56,385 nt of DNA from Herbinix sp. (GTDB lineage Bacteria > Bacillota > Clostridia > Lachnospirales > Lachnospiraceae), in contig JAQZBD010000026.1 in NCBI GenBank assembly GCA_029239235.1, positions 1 to 56,385 of the forward strand. The letters run 5' to 3'. Position 1 is the stretch's first letter. Each line of letters begins with the position of its first letter. The translations under genes and the position numbers were made by a program. The notes under the pieces were generated by a model that saw only the letters and a program-made list of their open reading frames with translations, ran no database searches and was not told the DNA's origin. Shown here piece by piece: positions 2,157 to 17,770 of this stretch.

Positions 2157-2184
2157 GACTTGCTCAACAAAAGTTCTCATTATA

Positions 2185-2324
2185 CTAGCGCGGTAAATAT
2201 GGGTGTATCTATATCCATATGGGCGCAGACCGGGCCTCCCGTGATTGCCTGCACTTAGCAATCATGGGATGTTAAAGGCAAGCCCAGGTGGATATAGATA
2301 CACCCATATTTACCTCTCAGCCTA
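2185..2324 (+). ncRNA. Structured palindromic element, copy 1 of 3 (candidate RNA)
   Basis: Outer arms 2192-2217 and 2289-2314 are perfect 26-bp inverted complements. Inside are a GGGC/GCCC helix, the conserved GCGCAGACCGG, an 11-bp hairpin (CCCGTGATTGC with GCAATCATGGG) with a TGCACTTA loop, and AAAGGCAAG. Copies at 6596-6735 and 14582-14715 keep core and pairing. The wobble pairs are G-U only if the plus strand is read as RNA, so plus is the likely sense strand. I cannot match it to a named RNA family. Confidence 0.65.
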
Positions 2325-2349
2325 AATTATTCCACTCGATCTAATATAT

Positions 2350-2389
2350 GAGAATCCCCTGCTGATAAATTAATCAGCAGGGGATTCTC
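2350..2389. other. Perfect 17-bp inverted repeat after the ABC permease gene
   Basis: Arms 2350-2366 and 2373-2389 (GAGAATCCCCTGCTGAT and its complement) flank a 6-nt loop, 43 bp after the stop of the permease. Neither strand has a U-run, so it is not a standard intrinsic terminator. It more likely protects the 3' end of the transporter mRNA or marks a processing site. Confidence 0.6.
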
Positions 2390-2431
2390 GTGGCACACTA
2401 CTATATGAAAGTATTATTTAGCATGAAAATA

Positions 2432-3397
2432 TTATTTGGCAACAACCTTCTTAACCTTAGCCATCTTCTGATAGGTATCATATCCGATGGAAGCCATAAG
2501 GATAAGTCCTTTTACGATATTCTGTGTATATACCCCCATACCGATGAGCTGCATACCATTGCCAAGGATACCAAGAATCAAGCAGCCAACAACCGCATCC
2601 TTTACACGTCCTTCACCACCGATAAAGGATACACCGCCAAGTACGCAAGCTGTAATAGCATCGAATTCTACACCAGGTCCGATGGAGGAACTGGCAGAAC
2701 CACCACGTGAGGTTAGGATTACAGTTGAAATGGTATATAATACTCCGGCGATACCGAATACCATAACCTTGATCTTGCTGACATTGATACCTGCCAGACG
2801 TGCAGTCTCAGCATTTCCGCCGACTGCATAGATAAAGCGCCCAAAGCAAGTCTTCTCTAACATAAAATGAATGATTAAAGCTACTACGATTGCTATTATA
2901 ATAGGAACAGACACAACACCTACATATCCCTGTCCAATTGCAATATAGCTTTCATCAAAATCGAAGAAGGATTTTGAACCGGAAAGTGTGTAAGAAATAC
3001 CTTTATAAATAGCCATGGTAGCTAAGGTAACAATCATAGGGTGAATCTTTAAGATATTTGCTGATAATCCGTTAAATGCTCCTAATGCCATACCAATGAC
3101 ACCACCTAAGATAATTGCAACCGGTACAGGTAAACCAGCACTTTGCATCAGCATTGCAATACTAACACCAATTACCGCTAAGATCTGACCAACAGAAAGG
3201 TCTGTACCACCGCTGATCATGACAAGAGCTACACCAATCGTTGCGACAATAAAGTATGCATTTTGGGTACAGATATTCATCAGGTTCTTTACTGTCAGAA
3301 AGTTCGGAGATAGCAGACCGAACACTATTACGAGCAGTACCAGAATGATAATCATCATATTACTTTTTATTATTTGTTGTATTTTACTTTTTTCCAT
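2432..3397 (-). CDS. CUT2-family sugar ABC transporter permease (RbsC-like)
   Basis: 321 residues, the usual size for RbsC/AraH-type permeases. It has about eight to ten hydrophobic segments and the family signature block GGTDLSVGQILAVIGV early on, plus GARLAGINVSKIK-like cytoplasmic loop residues (ETARLAGINVSKIK) that contact the ATPase. An AGGAGG site lies ten bases before the ATG. It is 14 bp downstream of the ATPase gene and completes a permease/ATPase pair; the binding lipoprotein is at 9749-10813. It should import a monosaccharide or small glycoside; substrate cannot be told from sequence. Confidence 0.92.
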   Translation of the reverse strand: MEKSKIQQIIKSNMMIIILVLLVIVFGLLSPNFLTVKNLMNICTQNAYFIVATIGVALVMISGGTDLSVGQILAVIGVSIAMLMQSAGLPVPVAIILGGVIGMALGAFNGLSANILKIHPMIVTLATMAIYKGISYTLSGSKSFFDFDESYIAIGQGYVGVVSVPIIIAIVVALIIHFMLEKTCFGRFIYAVGGNAETARLAGINVSKIKVMVFGIAGVLYTISTVILTSRGGSASSSIGPGVEFDAITACVLGGVSFIGGEGRVKDAVVGCLILGILGNGMQLIGMGVYTQNIVKGLILMASIGYDTYQKMAKVKKVVAK

Positions 3398-3411
3398 TAT
3401 TAAAAATCCTC

Positions 3412-4890
3412 CTATTCATGAGATGCAAGAGCCATAATATATTCCTGACTAAATTCTTGTTTTAAAACCTCTCCGGTTAAACGTCCTTCACTGATTACAA
3501 TAATTCGGTCAGACATACCAAGCAGCTCTTCCATGTCAGAACTTACCATGATAATTGACTTTCCATTTTCAACTAATCTTGACATCATCTCATAGATTTC
3601 ATGCCTTGCACCAATATCAATACCTCTGGTTGGCTCATCAAAGATGATAATATCTGAATCCATCGCTAGTACCTTTGCCAGAACAACCTTTTGCTGATTA
3701 CCACCGCTTAGTAATCCCACCCTCTGTTCCAGAGCCGGTGTTTTGATATTTAGCATATCCTTATATTTCTCAGCCTGGCTTCGGATCTTTTTCTTGTCAA
3801 TGATTCGGTTCGAGGTTAATTTTCTAATGTTTCCGATACTTATATTCCATTCGATGGAGTTATTCAAAAAGCAACCCTGTTCTTTACGATCTTCCGGTAT
3901 CAATCCCATTCCTGCCTTAATCATATCTTGAGGGGACTTGGCATTTTTCTCTTTCCCGTTTATGAACACTTTACCGCTAAGCTTTTTGTCTGCTCCAAAT
4001 ATAACTCTCATTAATTCCGTTCTTCCTGCTCCGACTAAGCCAGATATTCCCAGGATTTCACCCTTATGTAAATCAAAGGATACATCACTATTTTTTAAGC
4101 CGCTGACATTCTCTACTTTCAACACAATTTCATTTTTAATGCAATTGCGTTTTGGATAGGTATCGCTCAGCTTTCGGCCAACCATTAGGGTGATGAGCTC
4201 TTCTCTGTTGGTTTTCGCTGTTTCAACGGTTGTCACATAGGTTCCGTCTCTCATTACCGTTACTGCATCGGTAATAGCAAACAGCTCATCCAGTCGATGG
4301 GAGATGTAGATGATTGTTTTTCCCTTTTCCTTGAGACTGCGAATCATCTCATAGAGGCTCTCAACCTCAGACATAGTCAGCTGAGCTGTCGGCTCATCCA
4401 TAACTATGATTTTAGCATCCTTTGAGATTGCCTTTGTAATCTCTACCAGCTGTTGCTGAGCTGTAGACAGCTCCTTAACATAAGCTCTTGGGTTAATATC
4501 GATATTGAAACGATCAAAGAGCTCCTGGCTTATCTGAATCATTTCCTTTTTATTAATTAACCCGTTCATCTGTCTGCCAAGACAGATATTTTCCGCTACC
4601 GTCAAGCCATTAATCAGGTTATATTCCTGATAAATAACTTCTACTCCATTGGTTCTGGAAGCCAATGGCGTCATCTTATCGTACTCATTGTCATTAATCC
4701 ATATGCTTCCCTCGTCGTTTTGAACCGCGCCGGAAAGAATCTTGATCAGAGTAGACTTGCCTGCGCCATTCTCTCCAAGGAGTGCATGCACTTCGCCACT
4801 CTTAAAGTCAACACTTACATTATCAAGAGCGATTACCCCAGGATACCGCTTTGTAATATTTTTCATTTTCAATACAACTTGTTGTTCCAT
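3412..4890 (-). CDS. CUT2-family sugar ABC transporter ATPase with two cassettes (RbsA/MglA-like)
   Basis: 492 residues from the ATG at 4890 (MEQQVVLKMKNITKRYPG). Cassette 1 has an intact P-loop GENGAGKST, ELSTAQQQ signature, Walker B IIVMDEPTA and ISHR. Cassette 2 has the family's usual altered P-loop (GLVGAGRTE), LSGGNQQK, IIIFDEPTRGID and VSSDMEEL. An upstream TTG at 4938 would add 16 residues, but the ATG has AAGGA at 11 bp and the conserved N-terminus begins there. It energises the permease at 2432-3397. It has its own promoter (4962-5025), matching that of the binding-protein gene. Confidence 0.93.
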   Translation of the reverse strand: MEQQVVLKMKNITKRYPGVIALDNVSVDFKSGEVHALLGENGAGKSTLIKILSGAVQNDEGSIWINDNEYDKMTPLASRTNGVEVIYQEYNLINGLTVAENICLGRQMNGLINKKEMIQISQELFDRFNIDINPRAYVKELSTAQQQLVEITKAISKDAKIIVMDEPTAQLTMSEVESLYEMIRSLKEKGKTIIYISHRLDELFAITDAVTVMRDGTYVTTVETAKTNREELITLMVGRKLSDTYPKRNCIKNEIVLKVENVSGLKNSDVSFDLHKGEILGISGLVGAGRTELMRVIFGADKKLSGKVFINGKEKNAKSPQDMIKAGMGLIPEDRKEQGCFLNNSIEWNISIGNIRKLTSNRIIDKKKIRSQAEKYKDMLNIKTPALEQRVGLLSGGNQQKVVLAKVLAMDSDIIIFDEPTRGIDIGARHEIYEMMSRLVENGKSIIMVSSDMEELLGMSDRIIVISEGRLTGEVLKQEFSQEYIMALASHE

Positions 4891-4961
4891 AGAATACCAT
4901 TTCCTTCTTTCTAATTGGTATAACGAAGAGTTTTCCAACTGATTGATTTGATAGTATTAAT

Positions 4962-5025
4962 ATAATAGAAAATGCATAGAGCAACAATGTGAGTAGATTT
5001 CAAAAAAGTGGAGAATTTTTCGATT
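4962..5025 (-). promoter_or_regulatory. Regulated promoter upstream of the ABC ATPase gene, with operator block A
   Basis: On the minus strand a TATTAT -10 (4962-4967) is preceded, 35 bp upstream, by a 23-bp block at 5003-5025 that on the plus strand starts AAAAAGTGGA and ends TTTTTCGATT. The same block with the same 35-bp spacing and a shared TACTCNCATTGNTG stretch lies before the binding-protein gene (10850-10913). The -35 is poor, so activation by the YesN-type regulator encoded between them is the likely mechanism (inference). Confidence 0.65.
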
Positions 5026-5059
5026 TGTATACATATAGGTAGTGATGAATATGTGTGTA

Positions 5060-6526
5060 TCAGTAAGCTTCGAATTTTTGGATCTCCTTTACTCTTTCCC
5101 CGTTTCCATAGCTGTTCATTACGTAGATGGTATCACAAATTGCCTTTAGTTCTCCTATATTAGAGGAGGTAATCAATATCGCGGATTTATTCTTTGCCAA
5201 CTCCTCCAAGGCTTTATATATTATATTTCGCATAGTAATATCCGTTTCTTCACAGATTTCCTCACAGATCAGAAGGGTAGGTTTTGACAGAATCCACTTA
5301 TGAAAGATTACATTGGTTTTTACATAGGAATCGAAGCTGCTTACATCCTTATCCTTGTCCTGCTCCTTGATTCCCATCTCCTCCAGGTATTCCTTTTCCA
5401 GATACCTATTTACCCGCTCATTCTTAAACATGGTAAATAAACTCATCTTCAACATAATAGGAAGAAGTAAATTCTCAGCAAAGCTCATAGAGCCAACTAC
5501 CCCGCTGCGGTCCCTGTCTTTGGGGATATAGCCGACATTAAAGGCAATGGAATCGTCTATGGTTAATGGTGCATAATGCTTTCCATCCAATAAGATACGC
5601 CCCTGCTCTGCCTTGATATTTCCCACCAGCATATCTGTTACTTCTATATTCGCACTATTATTCATATCGTATAGGCCAACTACTTCTCCTCGGTGAACCT
5701 CCAGGTTAAAATTACTGATATAGCTTGGGCCTATTAGATTACTGGCTCTCAAAACAACCTGGTTCGTCATGTAGGATGTTCTTTGAAATCCAGTTAAAAC
5801 CGGATTTCCCACCAACCATTTTCTGCATAGCTCCTCATTATAGCTTTCAACATAGAAGGTTTTTACCGTGCTTCCTTGGCGTAAGATGATGACTCTTTCC
5901 GCAAGCTGGGTTAATTGATCCCTCTTCCTGCTGGCATAGATAATCGCTATGTTTCTCTCTTTCAGAACCCTCAGCAGCTCAAGAATCCTCAGCACTCCCA
6001 TTTGCCCATGGGAACTGAAGGCATCATCAATAAAGACCATTTTCGCTTCATTTTCAATGGCGCGAAGCAGCTCAATGACATGGCGTTGTACCAATGTTAG
6101 CTCATTGACCAGCATATCCGGTGCTAACTCGGGGGCGTATTGCTGCAGCAGAAGATTAACCCTGTAATTCATTGCCTTTTTATGGATAATACCTTTCATT
6201 TTTCGTCTTCCTGTAATAATACATAAGTTTTCAGCAATCGTAAGGTTCGGTATCAGGGTACTTTTCTGTCCCAGACACACGATATCCTTAATTGCCGAAA
6301 ACCGTTCATGTTCTTTCCATATTTGACGGTTAAACGTAACCTTACCCTCTCGAAGTATTTCCTCTCCAATAAAATAAAAATATAAAGCAGTTTTACCAGA
6401 ACCGGATACTCCCATAAGATTCACCATTTCTCCCTGATATACCTGAAGATGAAAGTCCCTCAAGGCAAAACGAGCCATTTCGTCCCCAATACAAACATTC
6501 TGCATCGAAAGAATTTCCGTTTTCAT
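5060..6526 (-). CDS. Degenerate sugar-ABC ATPase paralogue (pseudo-ATPase)
   Basis: 488 residues with the two-cassette layout of RbsA but eroded motifs. Cassette 1 keeps a P-loop (GVSGSGKT, residues 39-46), while the signature reads LTLVQRH rather than LSxxQQQ, and Walker B ends FIDDA, so Asp replaces the catalytic Glu. Cassette 2 has no P-loop (GLYDMNNSANIEV), its signature position reads FDSYVKT, and its Walker B reads LLICEE. The DRSGVVGSMSFAENLLLP stretch is recognisably the RbsA DRK/R region. It lies between the YesM kinase and the intact ATPase gene. The frame is clean over 1.5 kb, so it is maintained. A regulatory or substrate-sensing subunit is my inference; transport ATPase activity is doubtful. 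Confidence 0.8.
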   Translation of the reverse strand: MKTEILSMQNVCIGDEMARFALRDFHLQVYQGEMVNLMGVSGSGKTALYFYFIGEEILREGKVTFNRQIWKEHERFSAIKDIVCLGQKSTLIPNLTIAENLCIITGRRKMKGIIHKKAMNYRVNLLLQQYAPELAPDMLVNELTLVQRHVIELLRAIENEAKMVFIDDAFSSHGQMGVLRILELLRVLKERNIAIIYASRKRDQLTQLAERVIILRQGSTVKTFYVESYNEELCRKWLVGNPVLTGFQRTSYMTNQVVLRASNLIGPSYISNFNLEVHRGEVVGLYDMNNSANIEVTDMLVGNIKAEQGRILLDGKHYAPLTIDDSIAFNVGYIPKDRDRSGVVGSMSFAENLLLPIMLKMSLFTMFKNERVNRYLEKEYLEEMGIKEQDKDKDVSSFDSYVKTNVIFHKWILSKPTLLICEEICEETDITMRNIIYKALEELAKNKSAILITSSNIGELKAICDTIYVMNSYGNGERVKEIQKFEAY

Positions 6527-6595
6527 AATTCTCCCCTTCTACGCAATTAAATAATTCAGAATAACTGAAATTGAATAATAAACGCCTTCTTTAAA

Positions 6596-6735
6596 CTAAC
6601 GCGGTGAATCTGGGTGTAGCTATATCCATATGGGCGCAGACCGGGCCTCCCGTGATTGCCTGCATTTGGCAATCATGGGATGTTAAAGGCAAGCCCAGGT
6701 GGATATAGCTACACCCAGATTCACCTCACAACCTA
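6596..6735 (+). ncRNA. Structured palindromic element, copy 2 of 3 (candidate RNA)
   Basis: Perfect 26-bp arms at 6603-6628 and 6700-6725. Compared with copy 1 the arms differ at three positions and each change is matched in the opposite arm. The core (GCGCAGACCGGGCCT, hairpin, TTAAAGGCAAGCCCAGG) is nearly identical to copy 1. The flanks CTAACG on the left and CCTAAAT on the right are also shared. It lies between the kinase and degenerate ATPase genes. Confidence 0.65.
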
Positions 6736-6745
6736 AATCCCCATT

Positions 6746-7780
6746 TCACTTATCAAGAATCAAAGGCAGTGCTATCTCAACCTCTGTCCCCACGCCCTGT
6801 GTACTGGATACATGAATACCGTAATCATTGCCATATAGCAAACGAATTCGGTTATTCACATTCTCCATCGCAATGCCGTTATTATTTTCTTTTTCTTCAA
6901 TCCACTCAATCTTTTTACCAACATTGCGAAGCCTGTTATTTAGTTTCTGAAGTGTCTCGTCCGCTATCCCTATTCCATCATCTGTAACCAGAATCGTAAT
7001 CCGCTGCTCCGCTGCTTCAATATGAATATCGATATGACCCTGCTCAATCTTATTCTCTAATCCATGGAAAATCGCATTCTCCACAATTGGCTGCAGGGTC
7101 ATCTTGGGGATTCTGCAGTGATAAATTGCATCTGAATTGTCGTGATTATAGATATGAAAAACAAAGCGGTCTTTAAAGCGGTACTGCTGGATCTGCATAT
7201 AGGTTTGTATATTCTCAAGCTCCTGGGATAGCTTCACAATATCATTATCCTTGCTGATATTGTACCTAAAAAATCTTGCCAAAGCCTCCGTCATCTCAGC
7301 TATGGTAAAATTATCATCCACAATAGCTTGCCCTCTGATATTTTCCAATGTGTTATATAGAAAATGGGGATTAATCTGATTTTGCAGCTCAGCATATTTC
7401 ATTTTCTGTGTCATAATTGCCTGAGCATGCTCTTTCTCGATGGCTTTTTTCTGCATTTCCAAAAACTGATCTATTTGCTCCAGCATGGTGGCAGGCTCTG
7501 AAAAGTGCTCTCCATTGATTAAATTCCTTTGCTGCACGAACTCACTCATCTTATCTTCCAGCTTGCCAAGAGGAAGATAGATTTTATACATAAACAGGGT
7601 TAGTAAAACACCTAATATCACTAAAATAACAGCATCTGCCATATAGAAAATTTCCACCGCAATTCTCCAGGGCATGATGGGTGAGGATATTACAGTAATG
7701 ATCAAAATACTTACCACCAGCATTATCATAATGAAAAGGTATTTTTTTAGAAAATTCGTATTAATAATTCTTTTAATCAC
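6746..7780 (-). CDS. YesM-family sensor histidine kinase without an extracellular sensor domain
   Basis: 344 residues from a GTG at 7780 (GGGGG eight bases upstream). Two transmembrane segments (about 13-31 and 47-66) are joined by only about 15 residues, so there is no outside sensor domain. A coiled linker (70-125) leads to the His_kinase motif QNQINPHFLYNTLENI with H139, then an N-box (LQPIVENAIFHGLE) and a DDGIGI G-box. It sits 14 bp after the response regulator gene. Typical YesM proteins are about 580 residues with a large outside domain. The signal may therefore come from partner proteins such as the binding lipoprotein or the degenerate ATPase beside it (inference). Confidence 0.9.
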   Translation of the reverse strand: MIKRIINTNFLKKYLFIMIMLVVSILIITVISSPIMPWRIAVEIFYMADAVILVILGVLLTLFMYKIYLPLGKLEDKMSEFVQQRNLINGEHFSEPATMLEQIDQFLEMQKKAIEKEHAQAIMTQKMKYAELQNQINPHFLYNTLENIRGQAIVDDNFTIAEMTEALARFFRYNISKDNDIVKLSQELENIQTYMQIQQYRFKDRFVFHIYNHDNSDAIYHCRIPKMTLQPIVENAIFHGLENKIEQGHIDIHIEAAEQRITILVTDDGIGIADETLQKLNNRLRNVGKKIEWIEEKENNNGIAMENVNNRIRLLYGNDYGIHVSSTQGVGTEVEIALPLILDK

Positions 7781-7794
7781 TACTATTCCCCCTG

Positions 7795-9402
7795 TTAACG
7801 ATATAATTTACGATACTCTGTGGGTTTTAACCCAACCAATTTATAAAAGGTTTTGCTGAAATATTTTGCATCCACATAACCCACCTCTTCCGCAATCAAG
7901 TTGACCGGAAGATTTCCGTTTTTCAGCTTATCCTTAGCTGATTCTATCCTGCAGGAAATCAGATAATCGCTAAAATTAATTCCTATTTCCTTTTTAAATA
8001 CGGTACTAAAATACGCCGGACTTAATTCTATGGCTTCTGCAACCTCTTCCAACGTAATTTGACGCATATAATTTTCATTAATAAACTGCTTTGCCTTTCG
8101 AATCGGAAGCTGACTCGTATTTCGTTTGTCATCGATCACTCTTTCAAAATAGCGTTGATAGGTTTCTATGAAATTCCGAAGCAATAGCTCTTCTCTTATA
8201 TTACAATCCAGGATAAACTGCATCTGTTGTTCAAAATCATTGATGATGTTTTCTTGAATTTTATTTCGTTTCCAAATATCGATGGTAATTTCCTTCAGCT
8301 TCTCCATTAGTTCAAAGATTAGCACCGGCGAATAGTTTACCATCATATGAACATCATTCGCTATTTTATCAAAGTCACTGATAAAGGCCTGAATATCCAT
8401 AGCTTCCAGCTCATTTTCAAATTGCCGTTTAATACCTTCAGTAAATATATCTTCTACTTTAATCTGTCTATAATTAAGTTCTCTATAGTCGATAATACGG
8501 TTTGTCCCTTTTTTAATTCTGCATTTAATTGCAGCCACTGCCTCCCGTATCGTATCTTTTGTACCGGTGATGGAATTCTTCTCTACTCCAATACCAATCG
8601 TTACGTAAAAGCCATTGAACTTGTCCAGTTCAAGCCGGCAGAGCTTCAATATTTTATCAATCACCTGAAATACCTGTTCTCTATGCTCTGCTTTATAATT
8701 TACAACAGTTACCACACCGGTTTTAACGTAGGAATTAATATATTCCCACTCTCCCTCTTCCATGGCTTTCTCAATCAAATAATCAATTCCGTTTAGCAAG
8801 CTTTTTGTATCATAATTCGGAGCATTGGAATCTATCTTTGTTAAGAATGCAATAAAATATCCATTCTCAAACTCACAATGAAACTTCTCATCCAGCTCTG
8901 CTAATTCCCTGTCCTCACTAAAGTGATTGTGATGTATGATGGTACTTAAAAAATGCTTTCTAATTCGTTTCTTTCCTGAGCTTGCGATCTCCTCCAGCTC
9001 CTTCTTTTCATCATCAATGGCGCTGGCTTCTTTTCTATGTTGAAGGATTCGATCAATCGTTTCCTCTAATTCCTTTTTATCAATTGGTTTTAGTAAATAA
9101 TGCTTCACTCCCAAGTTTAATGCCGTGTGTGCATATTCAAAATTTTTGTAGCCACTCATGATTACAAAATCAGCATCCAGCCCCATATCCTTGCCTTTTT
9201 GAACTAATTGAAGACCATCATAACCAGGCATTCTGATATCTGAAATAATAATGTCCGGACGCTGCTCCTCCATCATTTTCAAGACCTCCAGACCATTATG
9301 AGCCATTCCAATGACCTCGAGTCCTTTCGCTTCCCAATGAATCAATTTGCAAATCATCAGGCAGATTATCTGCTCATCATCAGCAATCAATACTTTTAAC
9401 AT
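7795..9402 (-). CDS. YesN-family response regulator (receiver + AraC DNA-binding domain)
   Basis: 535 residues from the ATG at 9402, which has GGAGG seven bases upstream; a start 23 codons earlier has no ribosome site and precedes the receiver domain. Receiver: MLKVLIADDEQ, phospho-acceptor D55 in ISDIRMPG, and LLKPID. The middle region (about 150-420) is the large insert usual for YesN. The C-terminal AraC domain contains LEEVAEAIELSPAYFSTVFKKE and VGYVDAKYFSKTFYKLVGLKPTEYR. It partners the kinase at 6746-7780 and is the best candidate to bind the matching blocks at 5003-5025 and 10891-10913. Confidence 0.95.
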   Translation of the reverse strand: MLKVLIADDEQIICLMICKLIHWEAKGLEVIGMAHNGLEVLKMMEEQRPDIIISDIRMPGYDGLQLVQKGKDMGLDADFVIMSGYKNFEYAHTALNLGVKHYLLKPIDKKELEETIDRILQHRKEASAIDDEKKELEEIASSGKKRIRKHFLSTIIHHNHFSEDRELAELDEKFHCEFENGYFIAFLTKIDSNAPNYDTKSLLNGIDYLIEKAMEEGEWEYINSYVKTGVVTVVNYKAEHREQVFQVIDKILKLCRLELDKFNGFYVTIGIGVEKNSITGTKDTIREAVAAIKCRIKKGTNRIIDYRELNYRQIKVEDIFTEGIKRQFENELEAMDIQAFISDFDKIANDVHMMVNYSPVLIFELMEKLKEITIDIWKRNKIQENIINDFEQQMQFILDCNIREELLLRNFIETYQRYFERVIDDKRNTSQLPIRKAKQFINENYMRQITLEEVAEAIELSPAYFSTVFKKEIGINFSDYLISCRIESAKDKLKNGNLPVNLIAEEVGYVDAKYFSKTFYKLVGLKPTEYRKLYR

Positions 9403-9748
9403 GTTATACCTCCACACTCCATCTACTACCCACTCATTATACCAGGCACGCGAACTCTCATAATATGGCACATCGTGCCCGGACGTGCACTTACTGTGTT
9501 CGGCACCATTGTCTGCAAACAGACAAGTATAAGATCTATGGATATTATACCATATGCCAACTACTTAAAAAAGACAAGGAAAGAAAGCATTAACCCATTT
9601 TATCGTAAATAGGACGCTCGTATAACCCTTTAGCTATTGTATACATAATTACATAAATCTATTTTAATTGGAAAGGAGCGCTGCCGCAGGGCTTATACCA
9701 GCCTGGTGGCAACGCTTCTTTCTATACATATACTTTGATGTCTAGTTC
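9403..9748. other. 346-bp intergenic region with two hairpins between binding-protein and regulator genes
   Basis: Closest to the regulator gene is a perfect 7-bp hairpin, TTGTCTG-CAAA-CAGACAA (9509-9526). Nearer the lipoprotein gene is a longer GC-rich hairpin (9676-9717). I see no open reading frame with a ribosome site. It probably lets the lipoprotein mRNA be much more abundant than the downstream regulator mRNA. Confidence 0.5.
9676..9717 (-). terminator. GC-rich stem-loop after the sugar-binding lipoprotein gene (partial terminator)
   Basis: On the minus strand AGCGTTGCC pairs with GGCAGCGCT around an inner AGG/CCT helix, followed by CCTTTCC and an AT-rich stretch rather than a clean U-tract. 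Its place 32 bp after the stop of the lipoprotein gene suggests partial termination or mRNA protection. Confidence 0.55.
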
Positions 9749-10813
9749 TTATTCTCTCTCTGCTAATGTTTCTGGTGTAATAACAAATGCTTTACCATTC
9801 ACACGCTCGATTGGAGTCTGACCAGTGATTAATGGAGTGATACCAGTCATAAAATCACCTATTGTATCATCGAAAGTACCCATGGAGATTGTTCCTCTTA
9901 ATACACTTTCGTTTGTCTCAGATGCCTTGATCTTAGCAACGATTTCTTCTGTCTCATCGATACAGAAAATACCGAATTTGCTCTTATCCTGAATTGGAGA
10001 GGAAGATGAGCTTATGTAGGATTCAACGCCAACTGCACAAGTACCGTTTACTGCAACAACAACATCAATATCAGGTGTTGAAAGCATGGTGTTCTCAATC
10101 AGAGTACGTGCTGCGTCTGTATTATCCTGATCCTCTACTTCGGCAGTGATTAAATTAACCTTTTTGTTGTCTGCAATCTTCTTTAAGCCTTCACTACGTG
10201 TTACAGATTCAGGAACTGTTGAAGATGTGATAACGAGTACATTAACTTCTCCATCACCTGCATCAGCAAAGGTCTTGTCAATCCATTCGCTTGTCATAGT
10301 TACGCACTGCGCAGCCATGGACTCTTCTGTTGCTGAGATAACACTTGTTGTTGCGCCAGGGATTTCATAAGCAAATGCTAATACAGGAATTCCTGCATCC
10401 ATTGCTGATTTACAAGCACTTGCAACACCGTCTCCATTAACTGCCCAAACAACAATAACATCAACACCCATAGTTGTATAGTTTTCGATTTGTGTTAACT
10501 GAGTTGTTACATCGTTTTCTGCGGAGTCAACCTGAACCTTACAGCCCTGTGCTTCTAAGGTTCCCTGAAGTGCCTGGCTAAGAGCTAACATAAAGTCATT
10601 ACCAACACTTGGCATTGTAATACCAACGGATTTACCCTCTGCTGATCCCTCGGTCGCATCGGTAACTGCCTCAGTAATTTGATCCGCTGCTTCTGTAACT
10701 GCAGCAGAATCCCCATTATTGGTAGCAGACTCTTCTGCTTTTTGTGTACTACACCCTGTAAGCATTGCGAATGACACTGCAATAACTAAAATAATACTAA
10801 AAATCTTTTTCAT
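9749..10813 (-). CDS. Sugar-binding lipoprotein of a CUT2 ABC transporter (RbsB-like, Peripla_BP_4)
   Basis: 354 residues. It has a lipoprotein signal (MKKIFSIILVIAVSFAMLTGC, lipobox LTGC), then an acidic, Ala/Thr-rich linker (about 25-60), then the periplasmic-binding-protein fold beginning GKSVGITMPSVGNDFMLAL. ENYTTMGVDVIVVWAVNGDG and the later VVAVNGTCAVGVES are typical of the family's two lobes. AGGGAG precedes the ATG. It should deliver substrate to the permease and ATPase at 2432-4890. The promoter at 10850-10913 carries the same operator block as the ATPase promoter. Ligand unknown. Confidence 0.92.
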   Translation of the reverse strand: MKKIFSIILVIAVSFAMLTGCSTQKAEESATNNGDSAAVTEAADQITEAVTDATEGSAEGKSVGITMPSVGNDFMLALSQALQGTLEAQGCKVQVDSAENDVTTQLTQIENYTTMGVDVIVVWAVNGDGVASACKSAMDAGIPVLAFAYEIPGATTSVISATEESMAAQCVTMTSEWIDKTFADAGDGEVNVLVITSSTVPESVTRSEGLKKIADNKKVNLITAEVEDQDNTDAARTLIENTMLSTPDIDVVVAVNGTCAVGVESYISSSSSPIQDKSKFGIFCIDETEEIVAKIKASETNESVLRGTISMGTFDDTIGDFMTGITPLITGQTPIERVNGKAFVITPETLAERE

Positions 10814-10849
10814 AAATATTCTCCCTTCGGTATATTTGATGAATTAACT

Positions 10850-10913
10850 ATAATAAAAAATCCCTAACTCATCAATGAGAGTACTTTTTTAAAAAGTGGA
10901 TTATTTTTCGATT
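10850..10913 (-). promoter_or_regulatory. Regulated promoter upstream of the sugar-binding lipoprotein, with operator block A
   Basis: The -10 TATTAT (10850-10855) has the 23-bp block (10891-10913) 35 bp upstream, exactly as at 4962-5025. The two blocks differ at 2 of 23 positions, and a further TACTCNCATTGNTG is shared between block and -10. A small CTCAT/ATGAG inverted repeat lies within the promoter. Confidence 0.65.
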
Positions 10914-10944
10914 CCGGAAAGCTTACTGACGATCATTCTAGATT

Positions 10945-11772
10945 CTAATAATAAGGCCATTGACTAAATCTTTTTTCTCCGCTTCGATCCGGCTTATCTA
11001 TGGTAACTTCACCGGTTGCAGCCCACTGTACACCGCGAACGAGCGTGGTCAGATAGTTGATCCTTCGATAGGTATCGATATCATGTCCTAAGGAGCAGGC
11101 AAATATTCTTCCAGCACCATAGGTATTTGTCCATACCACCGGCTGCATTGTATTCACTCCGCGCATATTCTCCAGTTTTCCCTCCGGAACCAGTACCGGA
11201 TGATGAGGTGATGGGAATCCGGCTCTTTGATACACCTCAATATCATCATATACAGCTGCCAGTACCTGAGCCTTTGTGCCAGGATAGTATTCTACTCCTG
11301 CAAAGAAATCATCTCCAACCACCATATAGTCGGATAGTCCCTTCATAATAGGAGAGTCCGGCAATTCTATCTTAACATTCACATCATCACAGGGATTCTT
11401 TCTGCTCTGAGGGGTCGTTAAATAAATTCCCCACATCTCTTTGTATCTATCCGGCATATCCTCCTCCAACCAAACAGAGGAGTGATGGATAAAGAGTCCC
11501 TTGCCTGCTTTCACTGCTTCAAAAAAGACGTCCTCAGCTCCTGTATCCCATCTTTTATACTGTGACGTAGGAAGTGTCTTTCCATCATAGTTCAGGAATA
11601 GCAGGTCATAATCTTCCACCGTTCTCTTTGTGGCACCGTTAAACTCCTCAATTACTTTGACTGAAAAACGTCCTGTTGCTTCTAGCATAGTCCGAATATA
11701 TTCATTCATCTTCGGATAGTTATGTTCAGAAGTTAGTTGCCCCGATATCAATAATACTTTTAGCTTATCCAT
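10945..11772 (-). CDS. ThuA-like protein (trehalose-utilisation family, class I glutamine amidotransferase fold)
   Basis: 275 residues with the ThuA pattern: N-terminal KVLLISGQLTSEHNYPK, then YDLLFLNYDG, KAGKGLFIHHSS, then a C-terminal ACSLGHDIDTYRRINYLTTLVRGVQWAATGE. GGGAGG precedes the ATG. In rhizobia thuA is paired with thuB, a Gfo/Idh oxidoreductase that makes 3-keto-disaccharides, so its presence here supports a keto-glycoside pathway. The biochemical reaction of the family is not firmly established. The 121-bp gap upstream holds an AATTG-CGAAA-CAATT inverted repeat at 11803-11817 that could be an operator. Confidence 0.82.
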   Translation of the reverse strand: MDKLKVLLISGQLTSEHNYPKMNEYIRTMLEATGRFSVKVIEEFNGATKRTVEDYDLLFLNYDGKTLPTSQYKRWDTGAEDVFFEAVKAGKGLFIHHSSVWLEEDMPDRYKEMWGIYLTTPQSRKNPCDDVNVKIELPDSPIMKGLSDYMVVGDDFFAGVEYYPGTKAQVLAAVYDDIEVYQRAGFPSPHHPVLVPEGKLENMRGVNTMQPVVWTNTYGAGRIFACSLGHDIDTYRRINYLTTLVRGVQWAATGEVTIDKPDRSGEKRFSQWPYY

Positions 11773-11894
11773 AATTACCTCCCATTGTATTTATACACAG
11801 GTAATTGCGAAACAATTTGGCTTGTACACATAAGGAAACAATCTTTATAAGCTTCGCAGCTCCTATGATTTACCTTGTGAAGATACTCTTATTT

Positions 11895-12854
11895 CTATTT
11901 ATGACCCACATTAATGTACTTTTCTTTCAGATCCTTTAATCCTTCAACTTTTTTCTGTGTTCTGGCGCCATCCTTTATTTCATCAGAATGCTCCTGCTTG
12001 CCAGCGTCGTATAATCTGGAGCGTTTAATCTGATTCTCCGGGAACGTAACCTCAATCTTACCCTCCACAATACTAAGCTCACCTTCAATACCACAGATCG
12101 GACATTCCACCTTATTTTTATCATGCATAATAGTAAGCAGATCCATATGACATACCGGACAGGTTCCATCCTCCTCTCCACGCCACTTGGTTCTTTCCTC
12201 ATCAGTATCCGCAGCCAGGGCTTCAACGATATTCTTACCCAGTACCTTCATACGTTCCAGCACCTCAGGTCTTCCAAGAACATGCTCTACGTTCATAGCT
12301 CCATGATATTGGTATTTATCAACCACATCAATGCCCATTGGTAGTGTAAATTCGTACATATTTGGCATTGCAAGGGAAAGCCAATTTTCAGTCCGTGCCC
12401 CTCCAACTGTAACAAATGCGCCTACACGCTTCTTAAGACTTCTTGCATCCGGGAAGGTTGCCGGATCTTTTCCTTCTGCAATACCTGCATCGATTAAAGG
12501 CTTTCTAAAGGTAATATCATGGGAAGGTCCGATTCGATCACAAACCACCTTAAAATTACCTGTTGGTGCCAACACATAGGTTGGAGATCCAACAATCACT
12601 GCATCTGCAGACAGGAGTGCTTCATCGAGAATTGGGAAATCATCCTTATGAATGCAATCCCCTTTTCCTCTGCCGCTAACCATACCTCCAACACAGGCAC
12701 AGCAGCCGGTGCAGATATGTATGTTTAAATCATCACAACGTATAAACTGAATTTCTAATCCTGCCTTTTCACATTCCAATAATGCTTCCTTTAGCATTAC
12801 CTCAGTATTAGACATCTTTCTACCAAAGGATAACGCAACTACTTTTTTAACCAT
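11895..12854 (-). CDS. NADPH-dependent FMN reductase / iron-sulfur flavoprotein-like protein with C-terminal zinc ribbon
   Basis: 319 residues from the ATG at 12854. The N-terminus MVKKVVALSFGRKMSNTEVM is the FMN-binding strand-loop of flavodoxin-fold reductases. ICTGCCACVG supplies the CxxCxxC part of the compact Cys motif seen in iron-sulfur flavoproteins, with a fourth Cys in GKGDC. VGSPTYVLAPTGNFK is the usual second FMN loop. CPVCHMDL...VECPICG near the C-terminus is a four-Cys zinc-ribbon-like addition. A start 28 codons earlier lies inside a palindrome and was rejected. It probably shuttles electrons for the neighbouring glycoside-oxidising enzymes or re-oxidises their cofactor (inference). 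Confidence 0.8.
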   Translation of the reverse strand: MVKKVVALSFGRKMSNTEVMLKEALLECEKAGLEIQFIRCDDLNIHICTGCCACVGGMVSGRGKGDCIHKDDFPILDEALLSADAVIVGSPTYVLAPTGNFKVVCDRIGPSHDITFRKPLIDAGIAEGKDPATFPDARSLKKRVGAFVTVGGARTENWLSLAMPNMYEFTLPMGIDVVDKYQYHGAMNVEHVLGRPEVLERMKVLGKNIVEALAADTDEERTKWRGEEDGTCPVCHMDLLTIMHDKNKVECPICGIEGELSIVEGKIEVTFPENQIKRSRLYDAGKQEHSDEIKDGARTQKKVEGLKDLKEKYINVGHK

Positions 12855-12900
12855 ATTAACACACCCGTGCCTTTCAATTATTTGATGACCTATTCTTAAT

Positions 12901-12935
12901 ACAACAAATTTCACACTTCGTGTTAAATTTGTTGT
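12901..12935. promoter_or_regulatory. 35-bp palindrome upstream of the flavoprotein gene
   Basis: ACAACAAATTT and ACAC on the left mirror GTGT and AAATTTGTTGT on the right around TTC, with a single mismatch. It lies 46 bp before the flavoprotein start, in its leader. It may be an operator or a leader hairpin. Confidence 0.5.
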
Positions 12936-13006
12936 CATGAATTGAACATGCCTGAATAGAAAAATTGAAATGATATATTTTCAACCTAACCTCCTACATG
13001 CTTAAA

Positions 13007-13034
13007 GCTTGTGCTAGGATTTCCCCGCACAAGC
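13007..13034 (-). terminator. Intercistronic stem-loop after the TIM-barrel alpha subunit gene
   Basis: GCTTGTGC pairs with GCACAAGC around a 12-nt loop, followed on the minus strand by TTTAAG. The stem is short and the U-tract weak, so partial termination is more likely than full. Confidence 0.45.
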
Positions 13035-13070
13035 CAACCCCTTGAACCACTTTTGCTTCAAGTATTATAT

Positions 13071-14123
13071 TTATTCTTCAATTGCTCTTCTTAATGCTTC
13101 CTGATGTCTGCGAACCTGTTCCACACTATCTACATCAAAGGCATCGTTTAACATACGGTTACCTTCAAATTCAGTGCTTAGATAACCATGATACCCTGCT
13201 TTCTTATATGCATCAACTACTTCTTTGATTGGAATAGAAGTTTCAACATAAGCTTCATTTGTGTAATAGCATTTTGCATGAGTATGATAGATATACTGGA
13301 TATTATCAATGATATCCTGAGGGTCACACCAGGTATAGTCAAAGGTAGAGAAAGCATAATCCAGTGCCTTCTTATCACCGCCTAATTTATTTACCTTCTC
13401 CATCAGCTGCGGAAGACCATTTGCCTCCATATATGCATGATGAGCACGACCTAAATTTGTGTCATATTTAATCTTGGTGAAGCCTTTGGTCACACGATTT
13501 TCAAATGCCTCATCAACGGCTTTGATGCAATCCATACTGATTCCTTTTCTGATTGCCTGCTCTCTAAGAGGTGATGGAATGGATTTGCAAAAGATACCAA
13601 AGTCAGGCATAAAACCGAAGTTCTTGGTATTCGTCTTATGGATCAATTCCATATAGCCATCCGCCCAGCCGGAATTTAGGGAGAATGGGGAGTGAACTTC
13701 AATACAAATCTTGATATCATTAGCCTCTGCACATGGAATACTGCCCTTAATAACATCCATTGGTGTAGATACCAGAGTACGTAGAGTCTTAAATCCCAGC
13801 TCATGAGCCATCTTAATGTCTCGCTCCATCATCTGAATCTGTTCCTTTAAGGTGCAAGTACGATTTTTGTAAATATGATTTTCTAAAAATGCATCGTAAC
13901 AGGTCGGTTCGGTGCCATACTTCTCCATCCATCCGAACCACTTCTCTTTAAATTCGGGCGTAATTACTGGAAAATCCTCCATCATCTGTTCCGTTAATAA
14001 TTCAATGCCCGTTGCACCAGTCTTAGCAACTTCTCTGATACAATCCTCTAAGGATAATTTTCCGAGATAATATTCTTCCTGGTAGCTGTACAGGGAAACA
14101 CTTCTTTTTATATTATAAGCCAT
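13071..14123 (-). CDS. C-glycoside deglycosidase alpha-type subunit (sugar isomerase/epimerase-like TIM barrel)
   Basis: 350 residues. The barrel carries the expected metal/catalytic positions: E142 and H144 in CIEVHSPF, D174 in FMPDFGIF, H280 and H282 in HTHAKCY, and E318 in LSTEFEG. AGGAGGG precedes the ATG. It begins 11 bp after the beta-type subunit gene. That alpha (TIM barrel) plus small beta arrangement, next to a Gfo/Idh oxidoreductase, is what is known for C-glycoside deglycosidases (DfgA/DfgB of Eubacterium cellulosolvens; DgpC/DgpB with oxidoreductase DgpA in the puerarin-degrading strain PUE). The expected role is C-C bond cleavage of a 3-oxo-C-glucoside; a related O-glycoside eliminase is the main alternative. 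Confidence 0.78.
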   Translation of the reverse strand: MAYNIKRSVSLYSYQEEYYLGKLSLEDCIREVAKTGATGIELLTEQMMEDFPVITPEFKEKWFGWMEKYGTEPTCYDAFLENHIYKNRTCTLKEQIQMMERDIKMAHELGFKTLRTLVSTPMDVIKGSIPCAEANDIKICIEVHSPFSLNSGWADGYMELIHKTNTKNFGFMPDFGIFCKSIPSPLREQAIRKGISMDCIKAVDEAFENRVTKGFTKIKYDTNLGRAHHAYMEANGLPQLMEKVNKLGGDKKALDYAFSTFDYTWCDPQDIIDNIQYIYHTHAKCYYTNEAYVETSIPIKEVVDAYKKAGYHGYLSTEFEGNRMLNDAFDVDSVEQVRRHQEALRRAIEE

Positions 14124-14134
14124 CTCTAACCCTC

Positions 14135-14521
14135 CTAAATCTCAAAATCATATTCGCCTGAGTGTACTAAAATAACAGGCATATATGATGGTGCAATCGT
14201 CTGCGTTGATGTAATATGGTGCTTACCCTTTGCAAGTCCGCCATCCTTTAGTACAGTAATGGTTGCAAATTGTCCAAACTTCCAGCGGTAAGAAATAACC
14301 GTCTCCATCTCATCCAAGGTAAAGGTATCCCCTTCTAACGTAAAGCGGATATCCTCTCTCTTAAATTCTTCTCCATCCACGCAAACCTCAATATTGCGGA
14401 TAATGGAAAGAGTAACTCCTCTATAATACTGGATTCTTGTATCAAACTGAAAGCCGATCACTTTTCCTTCTGCTTCCACATTTTTGAAACCATCCGGTTT
14501 GTACATATGTCTTGGATACAT
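14135..14521 (-). CDS. C-glycoside deglycosidase beta-type subunit (DUF6379-like)
   Basis: 128 residues from the ATG at 14521 (MYPRHMYKPDGFKN), with AAAAGGAG eight bases upstream. A GTG at 14530 would overlap the ribosome site and is unlikely. All-beta, no signal peptide, with the family's early FQFDTRIQYYRGVTLS stretch and late HHITSTQTIAPSYMP. This small beta-sandwich protein is the partner subunit that completes the active site of alpha subunits such as the product of 13071-14123. The 11-bp gap between them supports a stable complex. Family assignment is from memory of the pattern, not a search. Confidence 0.75.
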   Translation of the reverse strand: MYPRHMYKPDGFKNVEAEGKVIGFQFDTRIQYYRGVTLSIIRNIEVCVDGEEFKREDIRFTLEGDTFTLDEMETVISYRWKFGQFATITVLKDGGLAKGKHHITSTQTIAPSYMPVILVHSGEYDFEI

Positions 14522-14581
14522 TATTTTCACTCCTTTTTATTATGTTTTCATATGGTTCGAGATTTCAAATCTTTTTAGCCT

Positions 14582-14715
14582 ACAGCGATGAATATGCGTG
14601 TAAATATGTTTAGATGGCGCAGACCGGCATATAATGATTGCCTGCACTTTGGCAATCATTATATGGTAAGGCAAGTCCAGATGAATATATTTACATGCAT
14701 ATTCATCTCAATACC
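14582..14715 (+). ncRNA. Structured palindromic element, copy 3 of 3 (diverged; candidate RNA)
   Basis: Arms 14587-14607 and 14687-14707 pair over 21 bp with one G-U in plus sense, then continue inward through more G-U pairs to ATGG/CCAG. The inner hairpin (CATATAATGATTGCC with GGCAATCATTATATG) is 15 bp, different from copies 1 and 2 below the GATTGC top, yet fully paired. GGCGCAGACCGG, TGCACTT and TAAGGCAAG are kept. It lies between the beta subunit and oxidoreductase genes. Confidence 0.6.
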
Positions 14716-14802
14716 TATATCTAAGTCTTTATACTCGAATCTCATTTCATCCAAACGCTTCAAGAAGGGGCAATGCCCCTTCTTAAAATATGATAAATAT
14801 AA

Positions 14803-15897
14803 TTAGAATTTGATTTCTTTATTACCTGCTGCCGCTTTATAAATTTGATCCAGAACCTTAGTTACTGCAAAGGCTTCCTCTGGCTTAACAAGTGGCTCCG
14901 TATCGTTAATAATTGCTTCTAACCATTGTTTTGCTTCTACAACGCCTTCCGCAGAAGCACCGCCTTCAAAGTATGCGATATCTCCAACCTTGGAGATGGT
15001 TTCTTCCATTAACAGACCATTCTTAGCTTTGTTATAGATCAGTTCATTCTTTTGATAGCTCATACCGGATTTAATCTCAGCACCGGATTTTGTTCCGCAT
15101 AAGGTGGTGCAGGCTTCTCTGGATTCTACAACATTCAATGCCCATGCTGCTTCCAATACGATGGTTGCACCATTCTTCATCTTAATGAAACCGATAGCAG
15201 AATCCTCTACCTCAAAGGTAGCCGGATCCCAAGGTCCAAAGAGATTTCCTTCAAAATTCTCACGCATTTTCTCAAATACAGAACCGGATACGGAATCAAT
15301 CTCATAATTTCCCATACACCATAAGGTAATATCAAGAGCATGTGTACCGATATCGATCAGTGGTCCGCCGCCTTGAAGTGCCTTATTCGGGAATACACCC
15401 CAAGTAGGAACTGCACGTCTTCTTACTGCGTGAGCCTTAGCGTAGTAAATATCTCCAAGCTCTCCATCCTGGCAGGATTTATGTAACGCTTGCACCTCCG
15501 GTCTGAAACGATTCTGATAACCGATGGTGAATTTCTTACCGGATTTTTTCCAAGCATCAATCATCTTCTGGGCATCTTCAGTGGTGTGAGCCATAGGCTT
15601 TTCGCAAAGTACATGCTTGCCTGCTTCAAAGGCAGCAACAGCAATCGGCGCATGTGCCACGTTTGGAGTAAGGATATGTACCACTTCTACCTCAGTATTT
15701 GCTAACAACTCTTTATAATCAGTATAAATCTTCGCATCTGCTGCACCGAATTCTTTAGCTGCTTTTACAGCACGCTCTTCTACGATATCACAAAATGCTA
15801 CGATTTCATTTAATTCAGAATTCTTCTTAAGTGCTGGAAAATGCTTATTATTTGCGATACCACCACAACCGATGATACCAATCTTCACTTTCTTCAT
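14803..15897 (-). CDS. Gfo/Idh/MocA-family oxidoreductase, candidate glycoside 3-oxidase (DgpA-type)
   Basis: 364 residues. Rossmann motif GIIGCGGIANN (residues 7-17), CEKPMAHT with K100, and IDIGTHALD with D182 and H186. GGAGG precedes the ATG. It is upstream of the beta and alpha C-deglycosidase-type subunits (gap 273 bp, holding palindromic element copy 3). In known C-deglycosylation systems such an oxidoreductase makes the 3-oxo-glycoside that the alpha/beta complex cleaves. A TATACT -10 lies upstream without a good -35. It resembles the 694-1752 oxidoreductase only at family level, so the two probably act on different substrates or steps. Confidence 0.85.
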   Translation of the reverse strand: MKKVKIGIIGCGGIANNKHFPALKKNSELNEIVAFCDIVEERAVKAAKEFGAADAKIYTDYKELLANTEVEVVHILTPNVAHAPIAVAAFEAGKHVLCEKPMAHTTEDAQKMIDAWKKSGKKFTIGYQNRFRPEVQALHKSCQDGELGDIYYAKAHAVRRRAVPTWGVFPNKALQGGGPLIDIGTHALDITLWCMGNYEIDSVSGSVFEKMRENFEGNLFGPWDPATFEVEDSAIGFIKMKNGATIVLEAAWALNVVESREACTTLCGTKSGAEIKSGMSYQKNELIYNKAKNGLLMEETISKVGDIAYFEGGASAEGVVEAKQWLEAIINDTEPLVKPEEAFAVTKVLDQIYKAAAGNKEIKF

Positions 15898-17558: not shown

Positions 17559-17763
17559 TTCTTTTGATTATATTTTCCATCCAATACTCCTTAATAATAC
17601 ATTTATATCGATATATCGACAATTGTTTTTAGTTCTATTTTACCATAGGAATAACTTCTGTGTAAATCATTTGAATGCACATTTCGTTATTTTCCGGAGA
17701 CAAGGGAGTGACAAGGGGACGGGGTTGTTGTCATTCATTTATGACAACAACCCCGTCCCCTTG
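17559..17763. other. Non-coding stretch with a short palindrome
   Basis: AT-rich, with a perfect TCGATATATCGA palindrome at 17608-17619. It otherwise shows nothing I can support before the REP-like repeat. Confidence 0.35.
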
Positions 17764-17770
17764 TCACTCC
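17705..17770. repeat. Perfect 30-bp inverted repeat, REP-like (GGGGACGGGGTT type)
   Basis: Arms 17705-17734 and 17741-17770 are exact complements (30 of 30) with a 6-nt loop. GTGACAAGGGGACGG-type palindromes are a common dispersed repeat in Clostridia, often linked to REP-associated Y1 transposases. It overlaps the last codon and stop of the restored GH43 frame (17764) and has no U-tract, so it looks inserted rather than evolved as a terminator. Confidence 0.8.

Follow-up and report, generated by a model that had tools for sequence, protein, structure and literature searches.

A dispersed palindromic element of Herbinix with covarying stems around a nearly invariant, RNA-like internal loop

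The window analysed here is a stretch of 56,385 nucleotides from Herbinix sp., a genus placed by NCBI in Lachnospiraceae, Lachnospirales (assembly GCA_029239235.1, contig JAQZBD010000026.1, positions 1 to 56,385 of the forward strand). It holds three copies of a palindromic element that belongs to a dispersed family, in which the core strand forms a long hairpin whose pairing is kept while the sequence of its stems changes. An asymmetric internal loop within this hairpin (GGCGnnGACCGG / AAGGCA) is almost unchanged from one genus or family to another. The three copies have the positions and sequences that an earlier note, made from the letters of the window alone, had given for them (2185-2324, 6596-6735 and 14582-14715), and these intervals prove to be the inner part of a larger palindrome of about 185-195 bp. 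The features of the three copies are listed below.

2157..2341, plus strand: copy 1, whole element, its outer inverted repeats decayed (inferred, approximate boundaries)
2185..2324, plus strand: copy 1, inner covarying hairpin of subfamily A, with arms 2192-2217 and 2289-2314
2222..2233, plus strand: copy 1, 5' strand of the conserved internal loop, GGCGCAGACCGG
2275..2285, plus strand: copy 1, 3' strand of the conserved internal loop, AAGGCAAGCCC
6596..6735, plus strand: copy 2, inner covarying hairpin of subfamily A, with arms 6603-6628 and 6700-6725
6633..6644, plus strand: copy 2, 5' strand of the conserved internal loop
6686..6696, plus strand: copy 2, 3' strand of the conserved internal loop
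14554..14741, plus strand: copy 3, full 188-bp element with outer repeats GGTTCGAG... / ...CTCGAATC, by direct reading (coordinates approximate)
14582..14715, plus strand: copy 3, inner covarying hairpin of subfamily C
14616..14627, plus strand: copy 3, 5' strand of the conserved internal loop, GGCGCAGACCGG
14668..14678, plus strand: copy 3, 3' strand of the conserved internal loop, AAGGCAAGTCC

When the window copies are compared with dinucleotide shuffles, the plus-strand folds of copies 1, 2 and 3 reach z scores of -10.9, -12.5 and -10.9, and the minus-strand folds are weaker (-8.6, -9.4 and -6.8). Copies 1 and 2 differ at three positions in their 26-bp arms, and all three are compensated, as had been noticed before and as we also read from the sequence. 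The outer-repeat remnants of copy 1, again by direct reading, are GACTTGCTCAACAAAAG / ...CTCGATC, without a clear flanking direct repeat. In copy 2 the left outer repeat is decayed and a possible right remnant extends to about 6761, within a histidine kinase gene, and copy 3 is flanked by the imperfect direct repeat TCATAT/TCATTT. Immediately to the left of copy 1, positions 1947-2137 hold a direct tandem array of about 12 units, each of 14 bp and ATTCACATGCCGTA-like, and between copy 1 and the stop of a permease gene lies a palindrome (2350-2389) with 20-bp arms that are 95% complementary, with no gap and without a terminator-like tail. The gene to the left of copy 3 (14135-14530) matches the C-glycoside deglycosidase beta subunit (PF19906), and a GFO/IDH/MocA oxidoreductase lies on the other side (14803-15897). 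An inverted repeat at 17702-17773 (AAGGGAGTGACAAGGGGACGGGG...; 33 bp, 97% complementary, 6 nt between the arms), which stands at the top of the inverted-repeat list of the window, is by sequence outside the family of copies 1-3.

The whole element is built in layers. The outermost layer consists of inverted repeats of the approximate form GATTCGAGYGTCAAAAG ... CTTTTGACRCTCGAATC (GATTC...GAATC), which are variable and often decayed; the CTA...CCTA edges once suggested as the ends of the element fall inside it, with the outer inverted repeats about 30 nt further out on each side. A 26-bp middle stem follows inward, then the asymmetric internal loop, with GGCGCAGACCGG on the 5' strand and AAGGCAAG(C/T)CC on the 3' strand, and innermost an apical hairpin, which is unrelated between species and which may include an extra hairpin, as in subfamily B, or be reduced to only a few bases. 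A pseudoknot or switch between TTGCCT and AGGCAA had been envisaged, but as a general feature this does not hold: the apical hairpin that bears TTGCCT is swapped for unrelated hairpins in other species, and it is absent from the 30-nt core form, while AAGGC(A/G) is kept in both situations. Hairpins of 56-116 bp (L249 1500-1605, L261, L263, L267 and L285) share the same type of end and have no core, as would result from deletion of the hairpin tip; those of 63-116 bp are internally deleted derivatives. Palindromes of about 300 bp (L281, L282, L283, L295 and L296 in genome G010; L300 in G004) combine related GATTTGAGTGTCAAAAGCC-type ends with a different long hairpin interior. In G363, a genome of another family, the element is a bare hairpin of about 84 bp in which no separate outer repeat was seen.

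Covariation of the stems was assessed in three alignments. Alignment A1 takes 59 of 60 motif-selected copies (the truncated L029 copy was left out; L008, L028, L030 and L038, which did not pass the motif filter or were truncated at a contig end, lie outside the 60). In A1, 95.3% of stem cells pair, double changes occur at 31 of 48 pairs, and the covariation score is 0.321 versus 0.139 when shuffled. The corresponding values are 95.7%, 21 of 28 pairs and 0.453 versus 0.153 in A3, which holds 27 divergent copies, and 98.0%, 24 of 33 pairs and 0.591 versus 0.158 in A4, which holds 15 copies from G363 and is independent. In all three alignments the observed values were reached by none of 500 shuffles and by no slid register; the slid registers preserve the relatedness of the copies, which the shuffles do not. 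The covarying stems seen in the window are thus confirmed across the family, and a chance origin of the family is ruled out by these shuffles and by copy number. Inner non-pairing is 11.2% in 13 copies with intact outer arms, 7.3% in 28 with middling arms and 6.2% in 73 with decayed arms, where one of 115 copies was dropped, the fixed window takes in constant non-pairs of subfamily C, and the outer arms of subfamily A may never have matched fully. Non-pairing of the inner stems thus does not increase as the outer arms decay. That the inner stems are paired despite decayed outer repeats speaks for upkeep in place, either by selection or by copying of one arm onto the other.

The mismatches point to the strand that folds. 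Read on the core strand, A1 contains 168 G-T against 19 A-C pairs, with 82 of the 168 falling at three pairs of the stem. Counted arm by arm in six genomes, the ratio of G-T to A-C is 122:27 in the middle arms (115 copies) and 86:12 in the apical hairpin (112 copies), together 208:39, whereas the outer arms (85 copies), an internal control within the same copies, show no G-T excess (43:76). The ratio in G363 is 18:6. Per copy, G-T is in excess in 94, in deficit in 7 and equal in 14. The excess is also found whichever way the neighbouring genes point, at 31:5 in 14 copies between plus-strand genes, which run with the core strand, and 103:16 in 57 copies between minus-strand genes, which run against it. 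A mutation bias of replication or transcription should flip with orientation, which the G-T excess does not, and selection for folding of the core strand is therefore the simplest reading of the bias. The proposal that the plus strand of the window is the RNA sense is borne out by these counts.

A covariance-model search of genomes had been recommended with the three window copies as its basis; the model used here, R1, was built from the 59 copies of A1. Searched against its own genome, R1 returns 116 matches, which comprise 64 distinct places (two partial matches, C1 and C195, included) and 52 mirror-strand matches to the same palindromes, and what had been called a three-copy family is so within the window and far larger in the genome. 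A blast search of the same genome with copy 1 gave 49 matches, mirror matches included. A second genome of the genus, G023, holds at least 69 places with R1 (83 matches reported, again with mirror matches). Four of its contigs (C25, C29, C32 and C41) start within an element; the repeat thus seems to break the assembly, which makes the copy numbers lower bounds. Across the genus, 12 of 34 genomes, the own genome included, match both R1 and a broader model, R2. Besides three chance matches, a search with the exact core pattern returned two Herbinix sp. metagenome-assembled genomes (MAGs), one 'Clostridiales bacterium' record and one 'Bacillota bacterium' MAG; as hosts outside the order, two Acidobacteria and one Burkholderiales record were rejected, their pattern matches having no stem and looking like chance. 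No match was found in phages and plasmids by blastn with window positions 14540-14745 only, and viral contigs gave none except one, L337 (13905 bp). This contig looks like the edge of a prophage, with the element on the bacterial side and identical in sequence to L101; the copy lies between a hydrogenase-like gene, behind which it sits antisense, and a signal-peptidase-like gene, both named by reading alone.

The core is kept beyond the genus. In 111 motif-selected copies, GGC and GACCGG on the 5' strand and AAGGCA on the 3' strand are 99-100% kept, values that lean high because the copies were selected by the core motif itself. The consensus of about 30 nt is GGCGnnGACCGGCYGA ... AAGGCAGCC, and most copies of the genus Herbinix carry GGCGCAGACCGG ... 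AAGGCAAG. With R1 or R2 the core was found in other genera of the family, namely in G073 (read in two copies, L305 and L306), G148 and G219, and it also occurs in two further families of the order, in G363 (16 copies) and G027 (read in three). In G363 the 30-nt core is nearly invariant across the 16 copies and the left arms are only 57% identical between copies; within a copy the arms pair at a mean of 25.9 of 27 positions (lowest 14) versus 17.9 when arms are swapped. All 16 model matches of this genome were read, and L323, whose arms are out of register, was left out of A4 and retained in the 18:6 count. Among genomes drawn from outside the genus the core is rare: a true core was present in 1 of 39 others of the family searched with R2, in 2 of 298 others of the family under stricter filters, and in 2 of 38 others of the order. 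The family-wide search covered 299 genomes under strict filters, with 10 candidates scored in each, so that absence there is weak evidence. Six further copies escaped the strict motif, four in G073 and two in G027, of which only the latter two were recovered, with a looser motif. Weak model matches without the core, in G072, in G256 and at one G073 locus (L302), were set aside.

Evidence of mobility comes from the ends of the element. Among 131 entries (115 + 16, a few copies entered twice), both outer arms are recognisable in 51 distinct copies at a threshold of at least 11 of 16 positions in both arms alike, those of subfamily A mostly standing at about 11/16. Flanking direct repeats of 6-7 bp accompany 16 of these 51 copies versus about 2.2 expected from swapped flanks, with a score of 6 or 7 required and offsets of up to 3 bases allowed. 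Terminal inverted repeats, dispersed short copies and target-site duplication, the traits of a miniature inverted-repeat transposable element (MITE), are all found in this genus. Here the element is a non-autonomous, MITE-like mobile element, and the mobility that the earlier note had offered as one possibility is upheld by the 64 places and the flanking direct repeats. Comparison of flanking proteins by blastp, made to look for orthologous copies, yielded few shared neighbours, and flanking genes are seldom common to copies in different genomes. Loci L144 and L110 share both flanking genes, but their elements are of different types.

The genomic setting is strongly oriented in two genomes. 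In G000 and G023 together, 61 of 90 copies lie between tandem genes, the core strand being antisense to these genes in 52 cases and sense in 9 (p=1.8e-8). The statement that the RNA sense is opposite to that of the neighbouring genes therefore stands for most copies in these two genomes and fails for 25 copies of other genomes, where there is no antisense bias (5 vs 5). Where the core strand is antisense, the aligned 145-nt region ends on its right side a median of 28 nt (G000, n=26) or 25 nt (G023, n=26) away from the upstream gene's stop codon, and the distance to the next gene is 186 nt (G000) or 104 nt (G023). The antisense bias would fit if insertions that put the folded strand into an mRNA are removed. 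Replacement of terminators by the element was considered and rejected: no intrinsic terminator (a G+C-rich hairpin followed by a U-tract) was found around any of the three window copies on either strand, and in crude scans terminator-like signals occur beside 8 of 52 copies versus 10 of 50 element-free tandem gaps of 100-600 nt, which is no different.

Closely related copies reveal how the arms change. Across 20 independent nearest copy pairs, in each of which the two cores are 0-4 columns apart, changes fall on 37 of 1780 core alignment columns. Of the 520 base pairs compared in the arms, 80 carry a double Watson-Crick change, against 27 with a single one. Transversion types account for 48 of the 80 double changes, and these cannot be made by stepwise compensation via G-U, whereas template switching can make them. 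The double changes show no significant clustering of the kind expected from long template-switch tracts (16 adjacent vs 13.6 expected). The excerpt of PMC8794818 used here proposes template switching as both maker and keeper of RNA hairpins. It is likely that both processes act on the element, with arm copying supplying the paired changes and selection setting the strand bias and freezing the loop.

Comparison with catalogued RNAs gave no counterpart. Neither the window nor 20 divergent loci gave a match at the gathering score of any Rfam 15 family, an unrelated L10 leader excepted, and the sub-threshold matches, mostly microRNA and snoRNA hairpins, all lie far below gathering scores and are chance-like. 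Among the 20 divergent loci no catalogued ribozyme family was matched at gathering level, and to our knowledge the cores of hammerhead, hairpin and twister-type ribozymes do not match that of the element. The element resembles the bacterial structured RNAs of Rfam 15 in having covarying stems round a conserved loop, but unlike them has no gathering-level match. We found no prior description of it in the open-access literature that was searched. The bcr1 repeat of the Bacillus cereus group likewise combines a Firmicute host with mobile-element traits; it belongs to a different host group, and the two are set side by side by description.

The nearest parallels in kind are drawn in the same way, by description. 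The BOX, RUP and SPRITE repeats of Streptococcus pneumoniae are mostly shorter than 200 bp, present in many copies, highly base-paired and mostly located where insertions are tolerated; BOX and RUP end in inverted repeats and are flanked by target-site duplications, and BOX has been shown to be expressed (PMC3049150, in excerpt). Size, copy number, pairing, repeats and tolerated sites are shared with the element, but unlike these repeats as that excerpt portrays them, the element has stems that vary almost freely with compensation round one internal loop, and a core found in three families. ERIC/IRU, Correia/NEMIS and YPAL are small mobile palindromes whose transcripts form long stem-loops, with an effect of ERIC on mRNA that depends on orientation (PMC2229807, in excerpt); they reside in other phyla, and the excerpt describes no comparable invariant asymmetric loop. 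By analogy, the element would work like the structured bacterial MITEs BOX, RUP, ERIC and NEMIS, and it looks like a structured MITE of known kind with a nearly invariant RNA-like loop.

Based on these results, we consider it likely that the family is a small, non-autonomous MITE-like mobile element with a structured, strand-specific RNA module inside it. A trans-acting transposase would move the element via its outer repeats, and transcription of the core strand would allow the long stem to present the invariant loop, which may be the working part, that is, a protein-binding or catalytic site. Template switching during replication may copy one arm onto the other, so that stems change mostly in pairs, and selection would remove copies that do not fold on the core strand.

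Several observations weigh against this reading. With tandem antisense placement in 52 of 61 copies (G000, G023), read-through mRNA would carry the other strand, and no sigma-70-like promoter was found on the plus strand in or left of the window copies, where the sole plus-strand match (2390-2417) lies to the right of copy 1; the suggestion of an autonomous noncoding RNA accordingly finds no support there. No parent transposon or transposase with the same ends appeared among the matches listed for end patterns in five genomes, mostly drafts, and no transposase was found beside 8 single ends. None of the 16 copies in G363 has flanking direct repeats, so the way of spreading there may differ. 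The strand bias has exceptions, since the middle arms of G046 are without G-T excess (5:5) and the outer arms of G048 lean to G-T (14:9), and folded single-stranded DNA with G-T pairs would yield the same bias as RNA. Over all copies compared, the outer arms pair only slightly better with the partner arm of their own copy (mean score 21.6) than with swapped arms (17.3-19.3).

If the element were palindromic DNA only, polymerase template switching would keep its arms complementary and no RNA function would be involved. The excess of double over single arm changes in the nearest pairs (80 vs 27), the 48 of 80 transversion types and the low core change (37 of 1780 columns) suit this account, as does the proposal that template switching creates and maintains RNA hairpins (PMC8794818, in excerpt), but it predicts neither the one-strand excess of G-T over A-C (208:39) nor a nearly invariant internal loop across families, and the double changes are unclustered; we judge it unlikely. 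The folded core strand could also be single-stranded DNA, as a substrate of a Y1/HUH transposase (REP/RAYT, IS200-like) or of an integrase (attC-like). Strand-specific folding with tolerated G-T pairs fits such a substrate as well as it fits RNA, and the G363 copies without flanking direct repeats agree with it, yet the 6-7 bp direct repeats in this genus fit double-strand (DDE-type) transposition. Moreover, the Y1 transposase expected of a REP/RAYT or IS200-type element does not accompany it throughout: a Y1_Tnp match is absent in 6 of the 12 element-bearing genomes of the genus (G004, G015, G017, G023, G046 and G048), several of which are drafts only 81-87% complete. We regard this explanation as quite improbable.

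Very unlikely, in our estimate, is a host regulatory or 3'-end element, such as a terminator or mRNA-stability element, adopted behind genes. The short distance to the upstream stop codon (median 28/25 nt vs 186/104 nt to the next gene in G000/G023) and the orientation of 52 vs 9 copies would be expected of it, but the window copies have no terminator-like site, the signals beside copies are no more frequent than in element-free gaps, flanking genes are rarely common to genomes, and the selected strand is the antisense one. Tolerated insertions also settle behind genes, as argued for BOX, RUP and SPRITE in the excerpt of PMC3049150. Returning to the mobile element with a structured RNA module, we tentatively raise the possibility that the core of about 30 nt forms the active site of a so far undescribed class of RNA, either a small ribozyme or a protein-recruiting RNA, common to at least three families of the order. 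It would be borne as cargo by small mobile elements, and its long helices would change in pairs several times faster than the core itself.

Our findings add an RNA-like motif for which the Rfam 15 scans made here gave no match at gathering level, and which combines very strong covariation with a loop that is nearly invariant across many genomes. Its partner or its chemistry can thus be sought directly. The family is also a natural experiment on hairpin evolution, offering dozens of sister copies in one genome with the outer repeats as an internal control. Paired changes in its stems outnumber single ones about threefold (80:27). All this renders the question of selection or template switching directly testable.

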